NCBI RefSeq assembly: GCF_011320075.1 | Contig: NZ_JAANPA010000032.1 | Location: 1 to 40,732 of the forward strand | Source: Sphingosinicella sp. YJ22 | GTDB taxonomy: Bacteria > Pseudomonadota > Alphaproteobacteria > Sphingomonadales > Sphingomonadaceae | Direction of reading: 5' to 3' | Length of the DNA: 40,732 bases | Part shown: in pieces, positions 4,185 through 16,371 of the stretch | Layout of the letters: the number at the start of each line of letters is the position of its first letter | Position numbering within the stretch: position 1 is the stretch's first letter | Notes under the pieces: model-generated | What the model was told of the DNA's origin: nothing | Database searches by the model: none | The model's input: the letters and a program-made list of their open reading frames with translations, nothing else | Translations under genes and position numbers: made by a program

Positions 4185-5314
<1,130 letters not shown>

Positions 5315-6407: not shown

Positions 6408-7457
6408 TCAGAGGATCGCGAGATGGCGGTTGTCGAACGCGCTCTTGTATTGCGAGGCGATCTCGACCTTGCGCTCCATCGCCTCAAGCACCGGCACGCT
6501 GAAGTCGACGCCGGCGAGCCGCGAGCAGCTTTCGAGGTTGCCCGGCGAGAACACGTTCACCTCGAGGATCTTGTCGCCGACGATGTCGACTCCGACCAGG
6601 AACATGCCGTCGGCGACCAGCTTGGGCCGGATCAGCTCGGCGACGGCGAGCTCGGTGTCGCCGACCTCCACCGCCTCCGCCTTGCCGCCGGCATGGATGT
6701 TCGAGCGGATGTCGTCCTTGGCCGCGACCCGGCGAAGCGCCGCGAACTTGCCCTTAATCTGCAGCGGCGCGCCGTTCATCATGAACAGGCGGATGTCGCC
6801 CTTCTTGGCCGCGGGGACATAGGCCTGGGCGATGATGTAGCCGTCGCGGCCGATCGCTTCGATCATCTGGTTGAGATTGGACTGGTTCTCCGGATCGACC
6901 TTGAACACGCCGGATCCGCCCGAGCCCTGAAGCGGCTTGAGGATGATGTTGCCGCCATGGTCCTTGGCGAACGCCTTGATGTCCGACGCGTGCTTGGTGA
7001 TCAGGGTCTCGGCGCGGGCCTCGGCCGGGAAGCTCTGGAAATAGAGCTTGTTGGTGGCCCTGCCGAGGCTGTCGGGATCGTTGAGGACGATGACGCCGCG
7101 CCGCGCCGCCTCGCGCCCGAACAGGATTCCGCTGTCCATCGCCCAGGGGGCGTTCTGGGCGTCGATCGACGGGTCGTTGCGAAGCATCAGGACGTCGATT
7201 CCCGCCATGTCGACGCGCTCGATCTTGCACGCCTTGTCGTCCTTCAGAGTCTCGAAGAAATCGAGGCGGCTCTTGTACTTGCGCTTGGGCAGGAAGCGCC
7301 CGTGCACGTTGAGGCTGTCGTCCGGGCTCAGCACGAAGTCCGACGGGGTGATATAGCAGACCCGGTGGCCGCGGCTGACCGCCTGGTGGGCCAGCGTCGT
7401 CGTGGTGTAATTCTCATATTCGCGCTCGATGTCGTTGACGAAGAAGCCGATCATCAT
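6408..7457 (-). CDS. GshB-like ATP-grasp ligase
   Basis: This 349-residue protein aligns by eye along its whole length with bacterial glutathione synthetase. Matching segments are LMLRNDPSID, TLITKHASDIKAF, the ATP-grasp phosphate loop NIILKPLQGSGGSGVF, AQAYVPAAKKGDIRLF, the basic/Gly loop RSNIHAGGKAEA, and the Mg-binding VGVDIVGDKILEVNVFSP. The expected reaction is ATP-dependent amide-bond formation. E. coli GshB is about 316 residues, so this one is longer, with an extra N-terminal insertion (GRFLPKRKYKSRLDFF). It is the third gene of a leftward operon, seven bases after the DUF1704 stop. It may be the cell's glutathione synthetase or a paralogue that ligates another amino acid; the operon context favours the latter. 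Confidence 0.85.
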   Translation of the reverse strand: MMIGFFVNDIEREYENYTTTTLAHQAVSRGHRVCYITPSDFVLSPDDSLNVHGRFLPKRKYKSRLDFFETLKDDKACKIERVDMAGIDVLMLRNDPSIDAQNAPWAMDSGILFGREAARRGVIVLNDPDSLGRATNKLYFQSFPAEARAETLITKHASDIKAFAKDHGGNIILKPLQGSGGSGVFKVDPENQSNLNQMIEAIGRDGYIIAQAYVPAAKKGDIRLFMMNGAPLQIKGKFAALRRVAAKDDIRSNIHAGGKAEAVEVGDTELAVAELIRPKLVADGMFLVGVDIVGDKILEVNVFSPGNLESCSRLAGVDFSVPVLEAMERKVEIASQYKSAFDNRHLAIL

Positions 7458-7464
7458 CTCTCAC

Positions 7465-9309
7465 TCACTCCACATCGAGTATGTTCTGAAGCGCCAGTCC
7501 GTCGCGCAGGCGGGCGACGCGCCGCTGGACATCCTCGCGGCCGAGGAATTCCGGCGTGAACAAAGGCGGGCGGATGAGGTTCCGCTGAAGCAGCTCCTCG
7601 ATCGCGGAGACGTGGCCGGGCGCGATCTTGCCGATCCAGAACGGGTCGAGCGAGGCGCCCGACGCGACCAGCCCGATGACGTGCTGGAAGCCCTCCAGGT
7701 AGATGAAGTCCTTGACGAAGCCGCCCGAGCGGAACACCCGCGCGGTGATGTCGAAGGCCGGGCGCCGGCCGATGCCGTGGTCGTCGGACAGCATCCGGAA
7801 CACCTCGACGAAATCGGCGCCGTCGAGCATGGCGTGGACCGCGAGCACGCGGCCGGCGAGCAGGCGCAGGCGCGCAGCGGTCAGCCCGCCGACGGCCCAT
7901 TCGGCGAACACGCCGAGGCCTTCCTGAACCCCTTCATATTGCGCGAGGCCGGTGCGGAACACGGTCAGTCCCTGAGCCGCGCCGTTGCAATAGGTGAGCA
8001 GGTGGACGCTGACCTCGTGCGCCAGAAGCGGATCGAGCCGGCTTTCGAGCATCGAGGTGTTGCTCGCGATCATCAGCTTGCCGCCGGACACGATCAGGCT
8101 GCCGACGTCGTCGCGCACCTCGACCTCGGCCGCGAACCCCGGATCGATCGCCTGGTATCTGGCGACGAGGGCGCGGGCGGTGTCGGCAACCTCGGCGGCG
8201 CCGATCCGCCGGCTGGGCGGAGTCGGGGGATGCTGCGCGGCGAGGATCGCGCGGGCGTCGGCGAGCAGCCTGGTGGTGACGGTGCCGTAGTGGAGCAGCG
8301 ACGCGGCCCGGAAGGCGCGGCTGTTGCGCGTCGCGAGCATCGTCAGCTGGTGATCGATCTCCTGCCGTTTCTCCGACAGCAGGCGTTCCAGCAGCGGATC
8401 CTCCAGCTTCGACAGGTCGACCGCGTAGAGCTCGCGCTTGGCCATGTCCGGATCGACGGTCAGCGGCCGGTAACGGAATTGCGGCGCCCGCTGCGCGCCG
8501 CCGTCGAGGAAGGTCTGCATCGCCTCGCGGGTGTTGATCGGCGACACCGACAGCAGGAAATCGAAGCTTCGCGCGACTCCGTCGAGCTTGCGGTCGGCGT
8601 CCAGCGCGGCGGCGAGGAAGGCGCTTCGACCGAGCGAGCGATAATGGTCGGGGGCGCCGGTCTTGCCCTTCGCCATGAACGCGCAGGCGGCTTTGAGCAG
8701 CGCGTCGCCGCACGCCGCGGCGAGCTCGTGGGTGATTTGAGGATAGAAGGTGTCGTCGCCGGCGCGATGGATCTGCGGAATGGCGATGGACAGGTGGTCG
8801 ACGTCGGCGCCGCTCGCGCCGGTGTCGACCGGGCCGGCGTCGCCGGCCAGCTCGACGAAGGCCTGGCGAAGATCGATCTCGATCTCGGCGAGCGCCTTGG
8901 CGAGCGCGGCGAGCGCGCCTTGGGCGCGCTCCCCCGGCGACGCGGCGACCCGGAAGCGGAACTCGGGCAGGTCCTCGGAGCCGGCACGCGCCGGCTGCCA
9001 CGCCGAGTCCTCGACGGTCAGGACGAGCAAGCGCTCGAAGCGCCGGGACATCGCCGCGGCGATCGCCGCGAGCGCCTGCGCGGCGAGGGCGTCGTCCTCG
9101 GGCGACCAGATCAGATAGGCCGGGCTGTTGACCGCGACCCGCCGGGCGATGCTTCGGCCTGGGCTGGCCGAGCGGTGAAGCACGATGAACGGGAGGTAGC
9201 GGTCGAAATGCACGCGGCCGCTCGTGCCGACCGCCTGGCGCAGCTCGCCGCGCTGCCCGAGCTTTGCGGCAAAGGCCGGGGCGTCGGAGAGAGTCGCGCT
9301 ATCGGTCAT
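7465..9309 (-). CDS. DUF1704 / QEGLA-motif metallopeptidase (MATCAP-like)
   Basis: The 614-residue protein belongs to the family annotated as flavohemoglobin expression-modulating QEGLA motif protein (TIGR02421). It has the zincin motif HEVSVH (H431, E432, H436) and, downstream, YEGVQEGLGVFAEW (Y458 to W471). This supplies a Glu in the position used by eukaryotic MATCAP tubulin carboxypeptidases, to which the family is related. The N-terminal half is non-catalytic and family-specific. The start ATG at 9309 overlaps the stop of the upstream gene by four bases (ATGA), showing translational coupling. No signal peptide or membrane segment is seen, so it should act in the cytoplasm. The bacterial substrate is unknown; a carboxypeptidase acting on the product of the neighbouring ligase is my inference. 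Confidence 0.9.
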   Translation of the reverse strand: MTDSATLSDAPAFAAKLGQRGELRQAVGTSGRVHFDRYLPFIVLHRSASPGRSIARRVAVNSPAYLIWSPEDDALAAQALAAIAAAMSRRFERLLVLTVEDSAWQPARAGSEDLPEFRFRVAASPGERAQGALAALAKALAEIEIDLRQAFVELAGDAGPVDTGASGADVDHLSIAIPQIHRAGDDTFYPQITHELAAACGDALLKAACAFMAKGKTGAPDHYRSLGRSAFLAAALDADRKLDGVARSFDFLLSVSPINTREAMQTFLDGGAQRAPQFRYRPLTVDPDMAKRELYAVDLSKLEDPLLERLLSEKRQEIDHQLTMLATRNSRAFRAASLLHYGTVTTRLLADARAILAAQHPPTPPSRRIGAAEVADTARALVARYQAIDPGFAAEVEVRDDVGSLIVSGGKLMIASNTSMLESRLDPLLAHEVSVHLLTYCNGAAQGLTVFRTGLAQYEGVQEGLGVFAEWAVGGLTAARLRLLAGRVLAVHAMLDGADFVEVFRMLSDDHGIGRRPAFDITARVFRSGGFVKDFIYLEGFQHVIGLVASGASLDPFWIGKIAPGHVSAIEELLQRNLIRPPLFTPEFLGREDVQRRVARLRDGLALQNILDVE

Positions 9310-10106
9310 GCCTGGAGCAGCTCCTCGGCCGTGGCGGAGATGTGGCTGACGAACGCGCGCATGTCGTCCAGCTCGGCGGGATCGGGCGCGCCGGTCCACT
9401 CGTCCATGAAGAACTTCTTGAACTCGAGCGCGATCGCGCAGCCCTGGCCCGGGAAATTGGCGTGGACGAAGCGCGTCTGCTCGCCCTTGCCCTGGAAGGC
9501 GACATTCTCGCGCACGTCGAGGCGGCGGCCGTTGAAGTCGAAGCCGCGCATCGCCTCGATCAGCGGGTCGAGCAGGAAGGCCCATTGCTCGCGCGGCATC
9601 GAGAAGGTGCCGATGTTGATGTCGGGCGCGTCGGCCTGCGGTGTCGCGGCGCCGCCGGGGCCGTCACGGCGATGGTTGTAGCTGTGGACGTCGATCAGAA
9701 CGAAGCGGGGATGCCGCTCGGCGACCTCGCCGAGCAGGGCCCCGAGCATCCGGTAATAGTCCGCGTGCAGCGCGAGCGAGCGCTGCACCAGCCCTTCGTC
9801 GGGCGCGCCGGGCTGCCACACCTCCAGGCCCCAGGATTGCTCCGGCTTCACATAGACCGCGTCGGCGGCGGCGCGGTTGAGGTCGAATTCGAAGCGCGAG
9901 CGATGGACCACGATATGGGTGCCGACGTCGCGGACCGACTGCCCGGTGAACGGGTCTTCCTCGCGCAGGCGGTCGGCTTCGTCCAGCGCCATGACCCGCG
10001 CCACCTCGGGCCGCAGGTCGTGACCGTCGTGGATCGCGGTGGCGATGATCGGGCCGGAGCCGCGCTGCACGGTCCAGCAGGGTTCCGAGGAGATGTCGTT
10101 GACCAT
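9306..10106 (-). CDS. N-formylglutamate amidohydrolase family protein
   Basis: This is the first gene of the leftward three-gene operon, 266 residues long. FGase-family features are the N-terminal metal-site motif IHDGHDLRPEV, VGTHIVVHRSRFEFDLNRA, the metal-binding IDVHSYNHRR, and EFKKFFMDEWTG near the C-terminus. Classical HutG hydrolyses N-formylglutamate to formate and glutamate in histidine catabolism. No hut genes are present here and the gene is coupled to a peptidase and an ATP-grasp ligase. It more likely cleaves an amide bond on a glutamyl or aminoacyl conjugate. The start ATG at 10106 has AGGGG immediately upstream, unusually close for an SD. Confidence 0.88.
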   Translation of the reverse strand: MVNDISSEPCWTVQRGSGPIIATAIHDGHDLRPEVARVMALDEADRLREEDPFTGQSVRDVGTHIVVHRSRFEFDLNRAAADAVYVKPEQSWGLEVWQPGAPDEGLVQRSLALHADYYRMLGALLGEVAERHPRFVLIDVHSYNHRRDGPGGAATPQADAPDINIGTFSMPREQWAFLLDPLIEAMRGFDFNGRRLDVRENVAFQGKGEQTRFVHANFPGQGCAIALEFKKFFMDEWTGAPDPAELDDMRAFVSHISATAEELLQA

Positions 10107-10230: not shown

Positions 10231-13200
10231 TTAGAAGCGCAGGCGCGCGCCGACGCGGCCGCTGACGCCCTCGATGTCGCCGAAGCGGCCGTCGGCCTCG
10301 GCATAGAGGTCGACTCGGCCGGCGGTGACCGCGAGGCCGCCGCCGAGCTGGCCGTAGGTGCGGCCGCCGTCGGCGGTGACGACCACCTCCTCGCTGCCGA
10401 GGTCGAACACGGTCCGATCGCGGCCGCCGAACTCGCGGGCGAGCGACATGGCGAGGAAGGGGCGGACCGGAAGGCCGAGGACTCCGTCGGCGACGCCCAT
10501 GCGGAGGCCGACCTCGCCGGTCGCGACGGCGCCGTCCTCCCAGGCGATGTCGCCGTTGACGCTCTCCTGGTCGGGCAGGCTGACATGGACCCAGGACAGG
10601 CCGGCCGCGGGCTCGATCCAGATCCCGCCGACGTCGGCTCGGTAGCCGGCTTCGAGATCGACGCCGAGGCTGGTGCCGTCGCCGCTGCCTTCGAGCCCGA
10701 CCGAGGCCCAGTTGGACTGGACGTCGATGAGATCGGCGCGGAGCATCGCGCTGGCGAACCAGCCGTTCGAGGCGAAGCCGGCGTAGAGGCCGGCATTGAC
10801 GACGTCGAAGCGGCTGTTTTCGTCCTGGCCGAGGTCGATCCGGGCGGTGCCGTAGCCGGCGGTGACTCCGACCTGCCATGGGCCGAAGCCCTTCTCGGCG
10901 CCGAACTGGACGCCCTCGTGCGAACCGCTCCACTGGAGGTCGCGCGAGCCGCCGGCGTGGGACAGGCCGGTGGTGGCGTCGACGTCGCTTCCGACCGCCT
11001 GCATCCACACGCCGCCGGCTTCGCCGCCGCCGCGGGTGACGAGGAGATGGGTGGAGAGGGCGTCGGCGCCGAAGTGCCACAGGTCGCGGACTCCGGACGC
11101 CATCGCGCCGGCGAGATAGGCGGTGTCGCTGAGGTCGCTTTGCAGCCACCAGCTGTCCTGCCCGTCATAGTCGAGCGAGAACTGGACGAATCCGCGCCTC
11201 CGGCTGGCCTCGGCGAGAGTGAGCTCGGCGCCGCTGTCGGTGCCGGCCGAGCTGACCACGCGGAGGCCGTCGAGGCCGAGCCCGCTGCCGTTGCCGACGA
11301 TGTTGAGGCGAAGAGCGCTGGTGCCCTCGAGGTCGCCGACCTCGACGAGGTCGGAGGCGCCGGCGACGATGTCGAGGTCGACGGCGAGCGTCGAGCCCGC
11401 GGCCCCGGCCAAGGTGCCGCTCAGCGTCAGGCTGTCGCCGGTGCGGCCGTTGGCCAGGCTGACCGTGCCGCTGTTCTCCAGGCGCTCCAGCCCGGCGAGG
11501 GTGATGCTGGTGGCGGCGCCGTCGCGAAGGGCGAGGAGGCCGCTGTTGACCAGCCGGTCGGCGCCGCCGCCGAACTGGCTGGTGCCGGCGGTGAGGAAGC
11601 GGCCGGCATTGGTGACGACGTCGTCGCCGCCGACGAAGGACATGCGGCCCAGGACGGTGCCGGTGGCGGCGATTCGGATGTCGCTGTCGCCCTCGACCCC
11701 GAAGTCATTGTCGCGGATGTCGAGGACCAGGCCGCTTCCGCTGGTCACGGTGCCGGCGATGTCGATGCGCGTCGTCTGCGACGATCCGGCCTGGATCGCG
11801 CTGGCCGCGCCGGACACGACGGCCCCCTCCTCGATGTCGATGTTGACGTCGCCGAGCCTGGCATAGGCGACGATGGCGCGGCTGTTCTGGGAGGTCACGC
11901 CGTCCCGAACGGTGAGCGAGACGTCGCCCTGGTCGGAATAGAGCCCCATCGCATAATATTCGGGGTCGGTGCTCGTCGAGACGACGCTGCCGACGGCGAC
12001 ATCGAGGTCGCCGATGGTCGAGGCGTTGATGGCGGTCCCCACCGTCTCCATGACGTCCGCTTCGATCGTCGCGGTGCCGCCGATGGCGAGGATGCCGTTC
12101 GCGCCGATGCCATAGGTGTAGATGCGGTTGGCATCGATCGCGATGTCGCCGTTGGTGATGACGGAGATCGCCTCCGCATAGTCGCCGAACGTGCCGGCAT
12201 ATTCGCGGACGACGATCGACACGTCGCCGAAGCTCTCGACCAGGATCGCCCGGCCGCCGGCGCCGCCGGCGCCGACTCCGTCGACGTCGATCGTGATCGC
12301 GCCGAACTCGCTCGCGGCGACGATTCCGCGCCCTTCGAGCCCGTCGGCGAAGACATAGCCGGCGTTGATGTTGACGTCGCCGCGGCTGACTCCGCCGATG
12401 CCGAGGCCATAGTCGCCGGAGACGAAGACGGTGTTGGCGTTGATGTCGACATTGCCGGTGTCGGAGAGGCCGATGATGCCCTGCGCTCCGAAGCCCTCGC
12501 CGATGGTCCTGACGGCATCGATGCTGACGTTCCCCGTCATGCTCTGCGCCCAGATCGCGGTGGTCAGGTCGCCGATTCCGTAGACCTCGCCGGCGATGAT
12601 TCCGACATCGCCGTCGCCGACCGCGGTCGCGTTGATCGCCATCGCGCTTTCGCCGACGCCGTAGGCCTGGCCGGCGGTGATGGCGATGTCGCCGGAGCCG
12701 AAGGTGATCGCCGAGACGCCGCGGCCGCCGACGCCGGCGGCAAGGCCGACGTCGATGGTGATCGCGCCCTCGGCGCTGCTCGTGTCGATGCCGTTGATTC
12801 CTTCGACGTAATTGGCCGCGACGGTGACGTCGCCCTGGGCGCCGGCGCTGATGGCGACGCCGCTGCCGATGACCTGGTCAGCCCGGACGTTGACCGAACC
12901 CGAGGCGGACTGGACCTCCAGCGCCGGCCCGGTTCCGCCGAAGATGAAGGTCCCATCCTCCGCGAAGAAGGAGATCGCGCCGTCGCCGGCGACCTGGACC
13001 GTCGGATCGAAATCCGTGGAAAGCGAGCCGTCGACGATCACGCCCGACCTCAGGACCACGCCGTAATCGGTCGCGCCGGTGTAGCGGATGCTCGTGTAGG
13101 GCGGATCGGTGGCTTCGCAGACCACGGTGCCGCCGTCCGAGGCAGGGCCGCATTCGTCCTGCGCCGCCGCGGGAGAAGCGTGCGCCAGAGCGATCATGCT

Positions 13201-13260
13201 GACGAGGCCGAGGGACGCGGCCTTCGGGGCGCGGCGAGGGAAACGGGCAACAGGGTTCAT
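10231..13260 (-). CDS. Autotransporter (type Va) with beta-helix passenger
   Basis: The 1009-residue protein has a signal peptide (residues 1-33, ending ASPAAA-QDEC). A long passenger (about 35-720) is built of repeats such as GDVDINANTVFVSG and GDVNINAGYVFADG, each with a GD(V/I) turn, an alternating hydrophobic strand and a small-residue turn, typical of a right-handed beta-helix. The C-terminal autotransporter beta-barrel (about 735-1009) contains SGSHEGVQFGAEKGFGPWQ, alternating aromatic strands, and the terminal GRVGARLRF with its C-terminal Phe. Two Cys (in DECG and VVCEA) near the mature N-terminus could form a disulfide. It should be exported to the cell surface. No protease triad or RGD is obvious, so adhesion or surface structure is inference. 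GGAGA nine bases upstream supports the start. Confidence 0.92.
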   Translation of the reverse strand: MNPVARFPRRAPKAASLGLVSMIALAHASPAAAQDECGPASDGGTVVCEATDPPYTSIRYTGATDYGVVLRSGVIVDGSLSTDFDPTVQVAGDGAISFFAEDGTFIFGGTGPALEVQSASGSVNVRADQVIGSGVAISAGAQGDVTVAANYVEGINGIDTSSAEGAITIDVGLAAGVGGRGVSAITFGSGDIAITAGQAYGVGESAMAINATAVGDGDVGIIAGEVYGIGDLTTAIWAQSMTGNVSIDAVRTIGEGFGAQGIIGLSDTGNVDINANTVFVSGDYGLGIGGVSRGDVNINAGYVFADGLEGRGIVAASEFGAITIDVDGVGAGGAGGRAILVESFGDVSIVVREYAGTFGDYAEAISVITNGDIAIDANRIYTYGIGANGILAIGGTATIEADVMETVGTAINASTIGDLDVAVGSVVSTSTDPEYYAMGLYSDQGDVSLTVRDGVTSQNSRAIVAYARLGDVNIDIEEGAVVSGAASAIQAGSSQTTRIDIAGTVTSGSGLVLDIRDNDFGVEGDSDIRIAATGTVLGRMSFVGGDDVVTNAGRFLTAGTSQFGGGADRLVNSGLLALRDGAATSITLAGLERLENSGTVSLANGRTGDSLTLSGTLAGAAGSTLAVDLDIVAGASDLVEVGDLEGTSALRLNIVGNGSGLGLDGLRVVSSAGTDSGAELTLAEASRRRGFVQFSLDYDGQDSWWLQSDLSDTAYLAGAMASGVRDLWHFGADALSTHLLVTRGGGEAGGVWMQAVGSDVDATTGLSHAGGSRDLQWSGSHEGVQFGAEKGFGPWQVGVTAGYGTARIDLGQDENSRFDVVNAGLYAGFASNGWFASAMLRADLIDVQSNWASVGLEGSGDGTSLGVDLEAGYRADVGGIWIEPAAGLSWVHVSLPDQESVNGDIAWEDGAVATGEVGLRMGVADGVLGLPVRPFLAMSLAREFGGRDRTVFDLGSEEVVVTADGGRTYGQLGGGLAVTAGRVDLYAEADGRFGDIEGVSGRVGARLRF

Positions 13261-15444: not shown

Positions 15445-16371
<927 letters not shown>

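Follow-up and report, generated by a model that had tools for sequence, protein, structure and literature searches.

A conserved three-gene operon of FGase, MATCAP and GshB-like ligase genes and its tentative link to osmotic and ionic stress

Operon layout and gene families

The DNA analyzed here, a stretch of 40,732 nucleotides from Sphingosinicella sp. YJ22 (assembly GCF_011320075.1, contig NZ_JAANPA010000032.1, positions 1 to 40,732; hereafter the window), carries a three-gene operon encoding an FGase-family amidohydrolase (P0003), a MATCAP/QEGLA-type gluzincin metallopeptidase (P0001) and a GshB-like ATP-grasp amide ligase (P0002, here called GshB2). The sequence-only reading of this DNA had described three leftward genes linked by an overlap of ATGA and a gap of 7 bases, and the coordinates agree to the base: P0003 and P0001 overlap in the ATGA at 9309-9306, and the TGA of P0001 ends at 7465, leaving 7 bases before the ATG of P0002 at 7457. 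The features of the locus are:

10106..9306, minus strand: FGase-family amidohydrolase P0003, 266 amino acids (aa), of a subfamily distinct from HutG
9309..7465, minus strand: MATCAP/QEGLA-type gluzincin metallopeptidase P0001, long form, 614 aa
8596..9309, minus strand: N-terminal domain of P0001 (residues 1 to about 238), a probable degenerate FGase domain
7457..6408, minus strand: GshB-like ATP-grasp amide ligase P0002 (GshB2), PRK12458 subfamily, 349 aa
10191..10223, unstranded: 13-bp perfect inverted repeat, directly 3' of the stop of the upstream gene (10231-13260)

The inverted repeat ends 84 nt ahead of the FGase start and has no T run; it is possibly a terminator that sets the operon apart from the upstream gene.

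P0003 matches the FGase family PF05013 at 83.5 bits (cut-off 28.9) and is presumably zinc-dependent. The best Foldseek matches of its AlphaFold model (predicted local distance difference test score, pLDDT, 94.4) are the N-formylglutamate amidohydrolase 2q7s (E 3.0e-11) and 2odf; other matches include the phage poly-gamma-glutamate hydrolase 3a9l and, more weakly, M14 carboxypeptidases such as the deglutamylase CCP5 (8v3p, E 4.3e-3). Residues H26, S70, R71, F72, D75, N77, R78, D139, H141 and E228 are each conserved in all 44 rows of the FGase alignment and are putatively catalytic.

P0001 matches the MATCAP family PF08014 over residues 265-589 at 278.5 bits (cut-off 27) and falls slightly under the QEGLA equivalog TIGR02421 (330.3 bits against a cut-off of 338.65). 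Its HEVSVH motif lies at 431-436 and its QEG at 462-464, and H431, E432, H436, Q462, E463 and G464 do not vary in 49 of 49 alignment rows. The relation to MATCAP, which the sequence-only reading had proposed, is borne out by the AlphaFold model (pLDDT 92.9), whose best Foldseek match is human MATCAP (7z6s/7z5g, E 3.5e-8); a profile search reached 7z5g at E 7.7e-15.

P0002 contains both GshB domains according to Pfam, with PF02955 at 174.2 bits (cut-off 23), and exceeds the cut-off of the "glutathione synthetase" subfamily NF009110/PRK12458 (442.4 against 408 bits). Its match to PF14397 stays below the cut-off (16.9 against 31.4 bits), and the TTL family is absent among its six Pfam matches (E up to 0.1). 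An anti-phage defence system was considered and rejected, as the three proteins matched no PADLOC family (E up to 0.01).

Conservation of the trio and pairing of FGase with MATCAP

Of 398 Pseudomonadota genomes drawn for a survey, 47 carry a MATCAP gene and 14 a PRK12458 gene over the cut-off, and the two occurred together in 13 genomes against 1.65 expected (Fisher P 2e-12, with genomes treated as independent). Fifteen of the 16 over-cut-off PRK12458 genes lie next to a MATCAP gene, and the sixteenth (G109) starts at base 48 of its own contig. Furthermore, a scan of a genome collection gave at least 575 relatives, from which the best 80 loci, biased towards the unfused form of the window, were fetched. 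Record titles and tree labels assign 51 of these loci to alphaproteobacteria, 3 to Gammaproteobacteria and 26 to ten other phyla, so that labels of 11 phyla are represented. Rare co-occurrence of the three families had been named beforehand as an outcome that would speak against a common function; all three genes are found inside the fetched stretch in 73 of the best 80 loci, and 67 loci have the gene order and strand of the window. The ligase is present in 79 loci, and the remaining one is cut by a contig end. Three of the seven loci without the full trio are incomplete at contig ends: in L103 and L127 the sequence starts with the MATCAP gene or within it, and in L131 it stops with that gene. 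At two loci the ligase reads as two adjacent frames (L116:9845-10891 and L103:2046-3097), reflecting either a broken gene or a sequencing error.

The protein distances of the three genes co-vary across 75 loci, with r of 0.92, 0.87 and 0.93 and none of 999 permutations as high, and co-variation is also seen outside alphaproteobacteria (23 loci; r of 0.69, 0.47 and 0.64). Two or three GshB2 copies stand in tandem in L122 and L129, which suggests that several residues are added.

In a survey by phylum, FGase and MATCAP were found in this order in a single frame of 660-703 aa in six loci (L045, L046, L051, L052, L058 and L059), one of which, L059, belongs to the window's own order. In these six loci the ligase gene stands before the fused gene. 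Photobacterium sp. GJ3 likewise carries GshB2 with an FGase-MATCAP fusion, and its ligase is 72% identical to that of L051. The fused FGase of L058:9998-11980 has decaying motifs (VLHSG, SRLACDLN and DLNS).

The unfused peptidase has about 238 additional N-terminal residues without a Pfam match. In hhalign comparisons, this domain matched the full FGase alignment (A1) at E 7.9e-8 with a probability of 94.5, and free FGases alone at E 2.6e-5 with a probability of 74.7. The motifs DxH[ST] and SRFxxDLN, which show little or no variation among 44 free FGases, were each found in 0 of 49 rows of the peptidase N-terminal domains. The order of strands and helices in the AlphaFold models of P0003 and P0001 is alike by eye, and the P0001 model gave a weak Foldseek match to the FGase 2q7s (E 0.21). 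The N-terminal residues of the peptidase are therefore probably a degenerate FGase domain, and the split form and the FGase-MATCAP fusion would share a common ancestry. We infer that FGase and MATCAP operate as a pair, which in the unfused lineage would also be a physical one.

Short QEGLA proteins (TIGR02421) of other Pseudomonadota share the MATCAP catalytic domain of P0001. These short-form genes mostly encode about 390-480 aa, and some frames in GC-rich genomes exceed 480 codons because their starts are uncertain. Genes around 17 such loci were listed by eye, and 18 stretches were searched (L063 and L169 being one locus). Unlike the trio of the window, the short form stands without an FGase-like gene or PRK12458 ligase alongside: FGase-like frames were found beside it in none of the 18 stretches, no PRK12458 gene was found beside it in the Pseudomonadota draw, and GshB/RimK-like frames were found nearby only in L159 and L162 (family f76), where they are distant in sequence (24-26% identity to the query). 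Thus, the pairing belongs to the long and fused forms. One long MATCAP gene (G093 contig C24, L056) has neither ligase nor FGase in the fetched stretch. In L158, L167 and L170 (family f44), the short QEGLA gene follows, by eye, a TetR-like regulator and a lipoprotein-like gene.

The operon is sporadic, since none of the 18 further genomes that the draw contained from the window's family has a MATCAP gene, though Qipengyuania marisflavi (L064) carries one. MATCAP relatives are present on 118 plasmid records, 79 of them from Sinorhizobium, and in the laboratory strain Sinorhizobium meliloti 2011 the trio lies on pSymB, where a ytf sugar ABC transporter follows the operon. A 70-aa gene stands ahead of the S. 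meliloti operon (L172/L173), with relatives only in L071, L077 and L081 among the upstream regions searched. A sporadic distribution could be expected of a chance operon of neighbours without a common function, but the presence of the same trio in loci of 11 phyla, together with the fusion and the co-variation, makes this extremely improbable. Rather, co-occurrence, gene order, fusion and co-variation support the three genes as one functional unit, which agrees with the earlier view that they act together.

Separation from glutathione synthesis and from hut

P0002 shares its domain layout with the glutathione synthetase GshB, and its nearest solved structure is E. coli GshB (1gsa, E 7.9e-35). 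Together with the GSH-S domains named by Pfam, this could point to a backup glutathione synthetase accompanied by glutathione-degrading peptidases. However, P0002 misses two glutathione synthase equivalog cut-offs, TIGR01380 (195 against 299.05 bits) and NF003573 (214.2 against 272). In a tree of 111 proteins, for which the program warns of long branches, 15 presumed true GshB proteins form one branch (100/100), 6 fused-type ligases another (100/100) and 90 unfused-type ligases a third (100/99), so that P0002 falls in a group separate from GshB.

Moreover, the genome of the window encodes a second GSH-S_ATP protein (221.7 bits) and a GCS2-type gshA (314.9 bits), which argues against P0002 being the sole glutathione synthetase, a possibility that the sequence-only reading had raised as damaging to its own proposal. 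Among 28 carrier genomes, neither gshA family was found in 12, including the named strain Litoribacter ruber (L135); 3 further carriers have only a GCS2 match of 25-28 bits, and only 6 have an additional GSH-S_ATP match of at least 200 bits. GshB2 is thus set apart by sequence from glutathione synthesis, and the backup role was rejected as very unlikely on the equivalog scores, the other genes of the genome, the carrier gshA survey and the tree.

The sequence-only reading had also stated that no hut genes are present to explain the FGase. Urocanase, a hut marker, is found elsewhere in the genome of the window, so the statement itself fails; that hut does not explain the FGase nevertheless holds, as P0003 is not HutG (26.3 bits against the TIGR02017 equivalog cut-off of 278.75). 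P0003 and HutG share the PF05013 family and fold, but P0003 represents its own subfamily tied to MATCAP.

Stress context and a proposed ligase-carboxypeptidase cycle

Around the triad, 135 neighbours were called in 26 loci, and 26 of them (20 and 6), chosen by size, position or similarity, were scanned against Pfam, as were 7 proteins (4 and 3) from other loci. The flanking genes named in this way encode, among others, MscS mechanosensitive channels, CorA and MgtE Mg2+ transporters, TrkA_C proteins, Ion_trans channels, sigma-54-type regulators and OmpA proteins; of the ten proteins in one scan, four were sigma-54-type regulators and two were OmpA proteins. With genome-wide counts as control, the triad has an MscS gene within 5 kb in 9 of 44 loci against 0.38 expected (P 3e-10) and within 10 kb in 12 of 44 against 0.71 expected, and it has a CorA gene within 5 kb in 6 of 44 against 0.13 expected (P 5e-9). 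These tests were picked after channels had been seen as neighbours, and the positions were copied by hand, some rounded to the nearest hundred bases. MscS genes were counted down to about E 1e-14, so nearby ones may be undercounted; G421 was placed on contig C353 in the MscS test and on C555 in the CorA and TrkA_C test, with no listed MscS on either. When a group of related loci is counted once, MscS is represented by six lineages (one each from Acidobacteriota, Gemmatimonadota and Myxococcota, two from Planctomycetota, and the related group) and CorA by four. L129 has three ligase genes in tandem, the third of which shares 4 bp with an MscS gene. MgtE is found in L053 and L143, and in L044 by phmmer only, at a distance of about 7 kb.

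A conserved fourth gene was considered and rejected. Clustering of flanking open reading frames, in which families were named by eye and only MscS, CorA and TrkA_C were compared with genome-wide counts, yielded large families (histidine kinases in 31 loci, ABC ATPases in 29 and LysR in 15), rhizobial stress-type genes (SDR in 9 and topoisomerase IB-like in 8), MscS in 9 and CorA in 6. In L049, L050, L054 and L055, rloABC-like genes follow the ligase; for L055, the one locus scanned, Pfam named a PF05618 protease, a PF14400/PF14402 membrane protein and a PF14397 ATP-grasp protein. Among the matches of 7 other proteins scanned from the window, none belongs to the RloA, RloB or RloC families. The rlo operon controls hypoosmotic tolerance in Pseudomonas aeruginosa (PMC12239564). 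Sigma-54-dependent regulators stand near the triad in L128, L129, L133 and L143, which represent three phyla.

In the window itself, an MreB/Mbl protein (4196-5293, minus strand; PF06723, 439.9 bits) is encoded slightly downstream of the operon. The upstream gene (10231-13260, minus strand) encodes a 1009-aa protein that is repetitive and autotransporter-like by eye and has no Pfam match at E up to 1e-4. A 308-aa protein further on (15445-16371, minus strand) matches leishmanolysin (Peptidase_M8) at 45.7 bits.

Stress promoters give a second line of context. The sigma-EcfG motif, taken as GGAAC-N15-18-CGTT after the consensus given in PMC3892343 and PMC6599016, was found within 300 nt upstream of the FGase in 11 of 51 alphaproteobacterial loci; 319 permuted motifs gave 0.27 such loci on average and 3 at most. 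None of the 21 loci from outside the alphaproteobacteria had the motif there. Over 800 nt it was found in 13 of 50 alphaproteobacterial loci (permuted motifs: mean 0.85, maximum 6). The EcfG regulon list of PMC6599016 includes MscS genes and a topoisomerase IB. A literature search with a guessed locus-tag stem found no paper linking S. meliloti RpoE2 data to the operon.

Published expression data also bear on osmotic stress. In the data of PMC10308900, the Photobacterium damselae gene A0J47_RS17020, annotated "Glutathione synthase GshB" and treated by the authors as a glutathione synthetase, was 38.4-fold up in 1% versus 3% NaCl, RS17025, a "QEGLA motif protein" and the next listed tag, was 27.5-fold up, and RimK was 52-fold up in the same experiment. 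Judging from the neighbouring tags, the annotation and the operon of Photobacterium sp. GJ3, this gene pair is likely the GshB2 operon.

These observations bear on whether the trio is a scavenging or catabolic operon, in which FGase and MATCAP would degrade N-acyl or glutamyl peptides and GshB2 would serve as a salvage ligase. The FGase relatives do include HutG and the phage poly-gamma-glutamate hydrolase 3a9l, ABC-transporter ATPases (assigned by eye and without a genome-wide control) flank the 29 loci mentioned above, the ytf transporter follows the S. meliloti operon, and a glutamate dehydrogenase gene flanks the triad in L133. ABC ATPases are, however, a very large family, the ligase is retained in every one of the best loci except that cut by a contig end, and neither the stress promoters nor the induction at low salt hints at a use in nutrition, so we regard this as decidedly unlikely.

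ATP-grasp enzymes of the GshB type couple a carboxylate to an amine, and relatives of FGase and MATCAP cut amide bonds beside a free carboxylate. Taking the chemistry of each enzyme from its own family, we tentatively propose, at somewhat less than an even chance, that the trio is a mobile module running a reversible glutamyl-peptide ligase/carboxypeptidase cycle in osmotic or ionic stress. With ATP, GshB2 would attach an amino acid to a small peptide ending in glutamyl, at its free carboxylate, giving a glutathione-like compound other than glutathione. FGase and MATCAP, which are fused in one lineage and perhaps held together by the dead FGase domain in the other, would act as a physical pair and trim this product from its carboxyl end. 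The peptide may then serve the response to osmotic stress, mainly downshift, and to ionic stress, either as a solute or as a channel ligand. A small-peptide substrate appears most likely, given that both GshB domains are present in the ligase and that it stands in tandem copies in L122 and L129. The sequence-only reading had envisaged a set that makes and removes a short modification; an amide cycle follows reasonably from a ligase beside two carboxypeptidase-related hydrolase families and that part stands, but the picture was incomplete without the FGase-MATCAP fusion, the degenerate FGase domain and the osmotic and ionic-stress context.

The same ligase-hydrolase cycle may instead act on a protein of a channel, the envelope or the ribosome. 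GshB2 would then extend its C-terminal tail or a glutamyl side chain, and FGase and MATCAP would remove the residues, in parallel with tubulin tyrosination/glutamylation and RimK/RimB. Known GshB enzymes act on small molecules; in addition, P0002 carries the two GshB domains without any match to a TTL domain, and the flanking clusters gave no obvious conserved protein target adjoining the operon. In favour of a protein target, the MATCAP family contains tubulin tail carboxypeptidases and keeps HExxxH and QEG/EEG (PMC10499314), the FGase model matches M14 carboxypeptidases including CCP5, channel genes adjoin the triad in several phyla, and RimK and rlo are ligase-protease systems, with RimK induced 52-fold at low salt in the P. 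damselae data. On balance, a protein target seems possible but doubtful.

The trio resembles ligase-peptidase systems such as rim and rlo by analogy: in the rim operon (RimK ligase and RimB protease) and the rlo operon (RloA retropepsin, RloB membrane protein and RloC ATP-grasp), as described in PMC12239564, an ATP-grasp protein is likewise encoded alongside an opposing peptidase. Unlike these, the trio has a GshB/PRK12458 ligase, two metallohydrolase families rather than one aspartic protease, and no membrane protein. In the tubulin code enzymes (TTL/TTLL, the M14 family CCP, and MATCAP/TMCP; PMC10499314), a ligase is opposed by carboxypeptidases as in the trio; P0001 belongs to the MATCAP family and P0003 is weakly M14/CCP-like by fold, which echoes these enzymes, whereas the trio shows no TTL domain match and forms a single operon. 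TTL is itself an ATP-grasp enzyme. No paper titled on the trio was among those listed by the literature search. Iyer et al. 2009 (10.1039/b917682a) reportedly proposed amidoligase/peptidase systems from neighbourhoods of ligase and peptidase genes, and the trio may be among them.

Several observations weigh against the peptide cycle, its stress role or the unity of the trio. No recognisable FGase was found 2.5-8 kb upstream in L104, L106, L112 and L135, Vibrio sp. HDW18 has an FGase-MATCAP fusion without an adjacent GshB2, and host descent may be partly behind the co-variation of the three proteins. Many of the carrier genomes are metagenome bins, in which an absent gshA may be a gap. As to the channels, four of the nine MscS loci (G037, G113 twice and G173) and three of the six CorA loci (G037, G113 and G173) are related, TrkA_C is weakly enriched (4 of 44 against 0.78 expected, P 0.008), and none of the 7 flanking proteins scanned from the window belongs to a channel family; the rloABC-like neighbours are confined to one genus. 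The EcfG motif is missing from the 400 nt upstream of the window operon and from the 300 nt upstream of the S. meliloti pSymB copies, and the P. damselae pair was matched through its annotation, its neighbouring tags and the operon of a congener, not through its own genome sequence. Finally, the MATCAP/TMCP relatives of known action cut protein (tubulin) tails and not small peptides (PMC10499314).

An unlikely but far-reaching variant is a bacterial "tail code", in which the ligase would write, and FGase/MATCAP erase, residues on ion-channel or mechanosensitive channel proteins or on a channel ligand. If true, such a code would set the osmotic-downshift response across many phyla, the MATCAPs that trim tubulin in animals would be related to its eraser, and the eraser machine would be built partly on a dead copy of one of its own enzymes.

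Whatever the target of the proposed cycle, the annotations "glutathione synthetase", "N-formylglutamate amidohydrolase" and "flavohemoglobin expression-modulating QEGLA protein" describe one functional unit in many phyla, whose enzymes probably perform none of the annotated functions. The published low-salt study assigned to glutathione synthesis a gene that is probably the ligase of the trio, and the osmotic context offers a first testable role for a unit whose peptidase shares its family with tubulin-trimming enzymes of animals.

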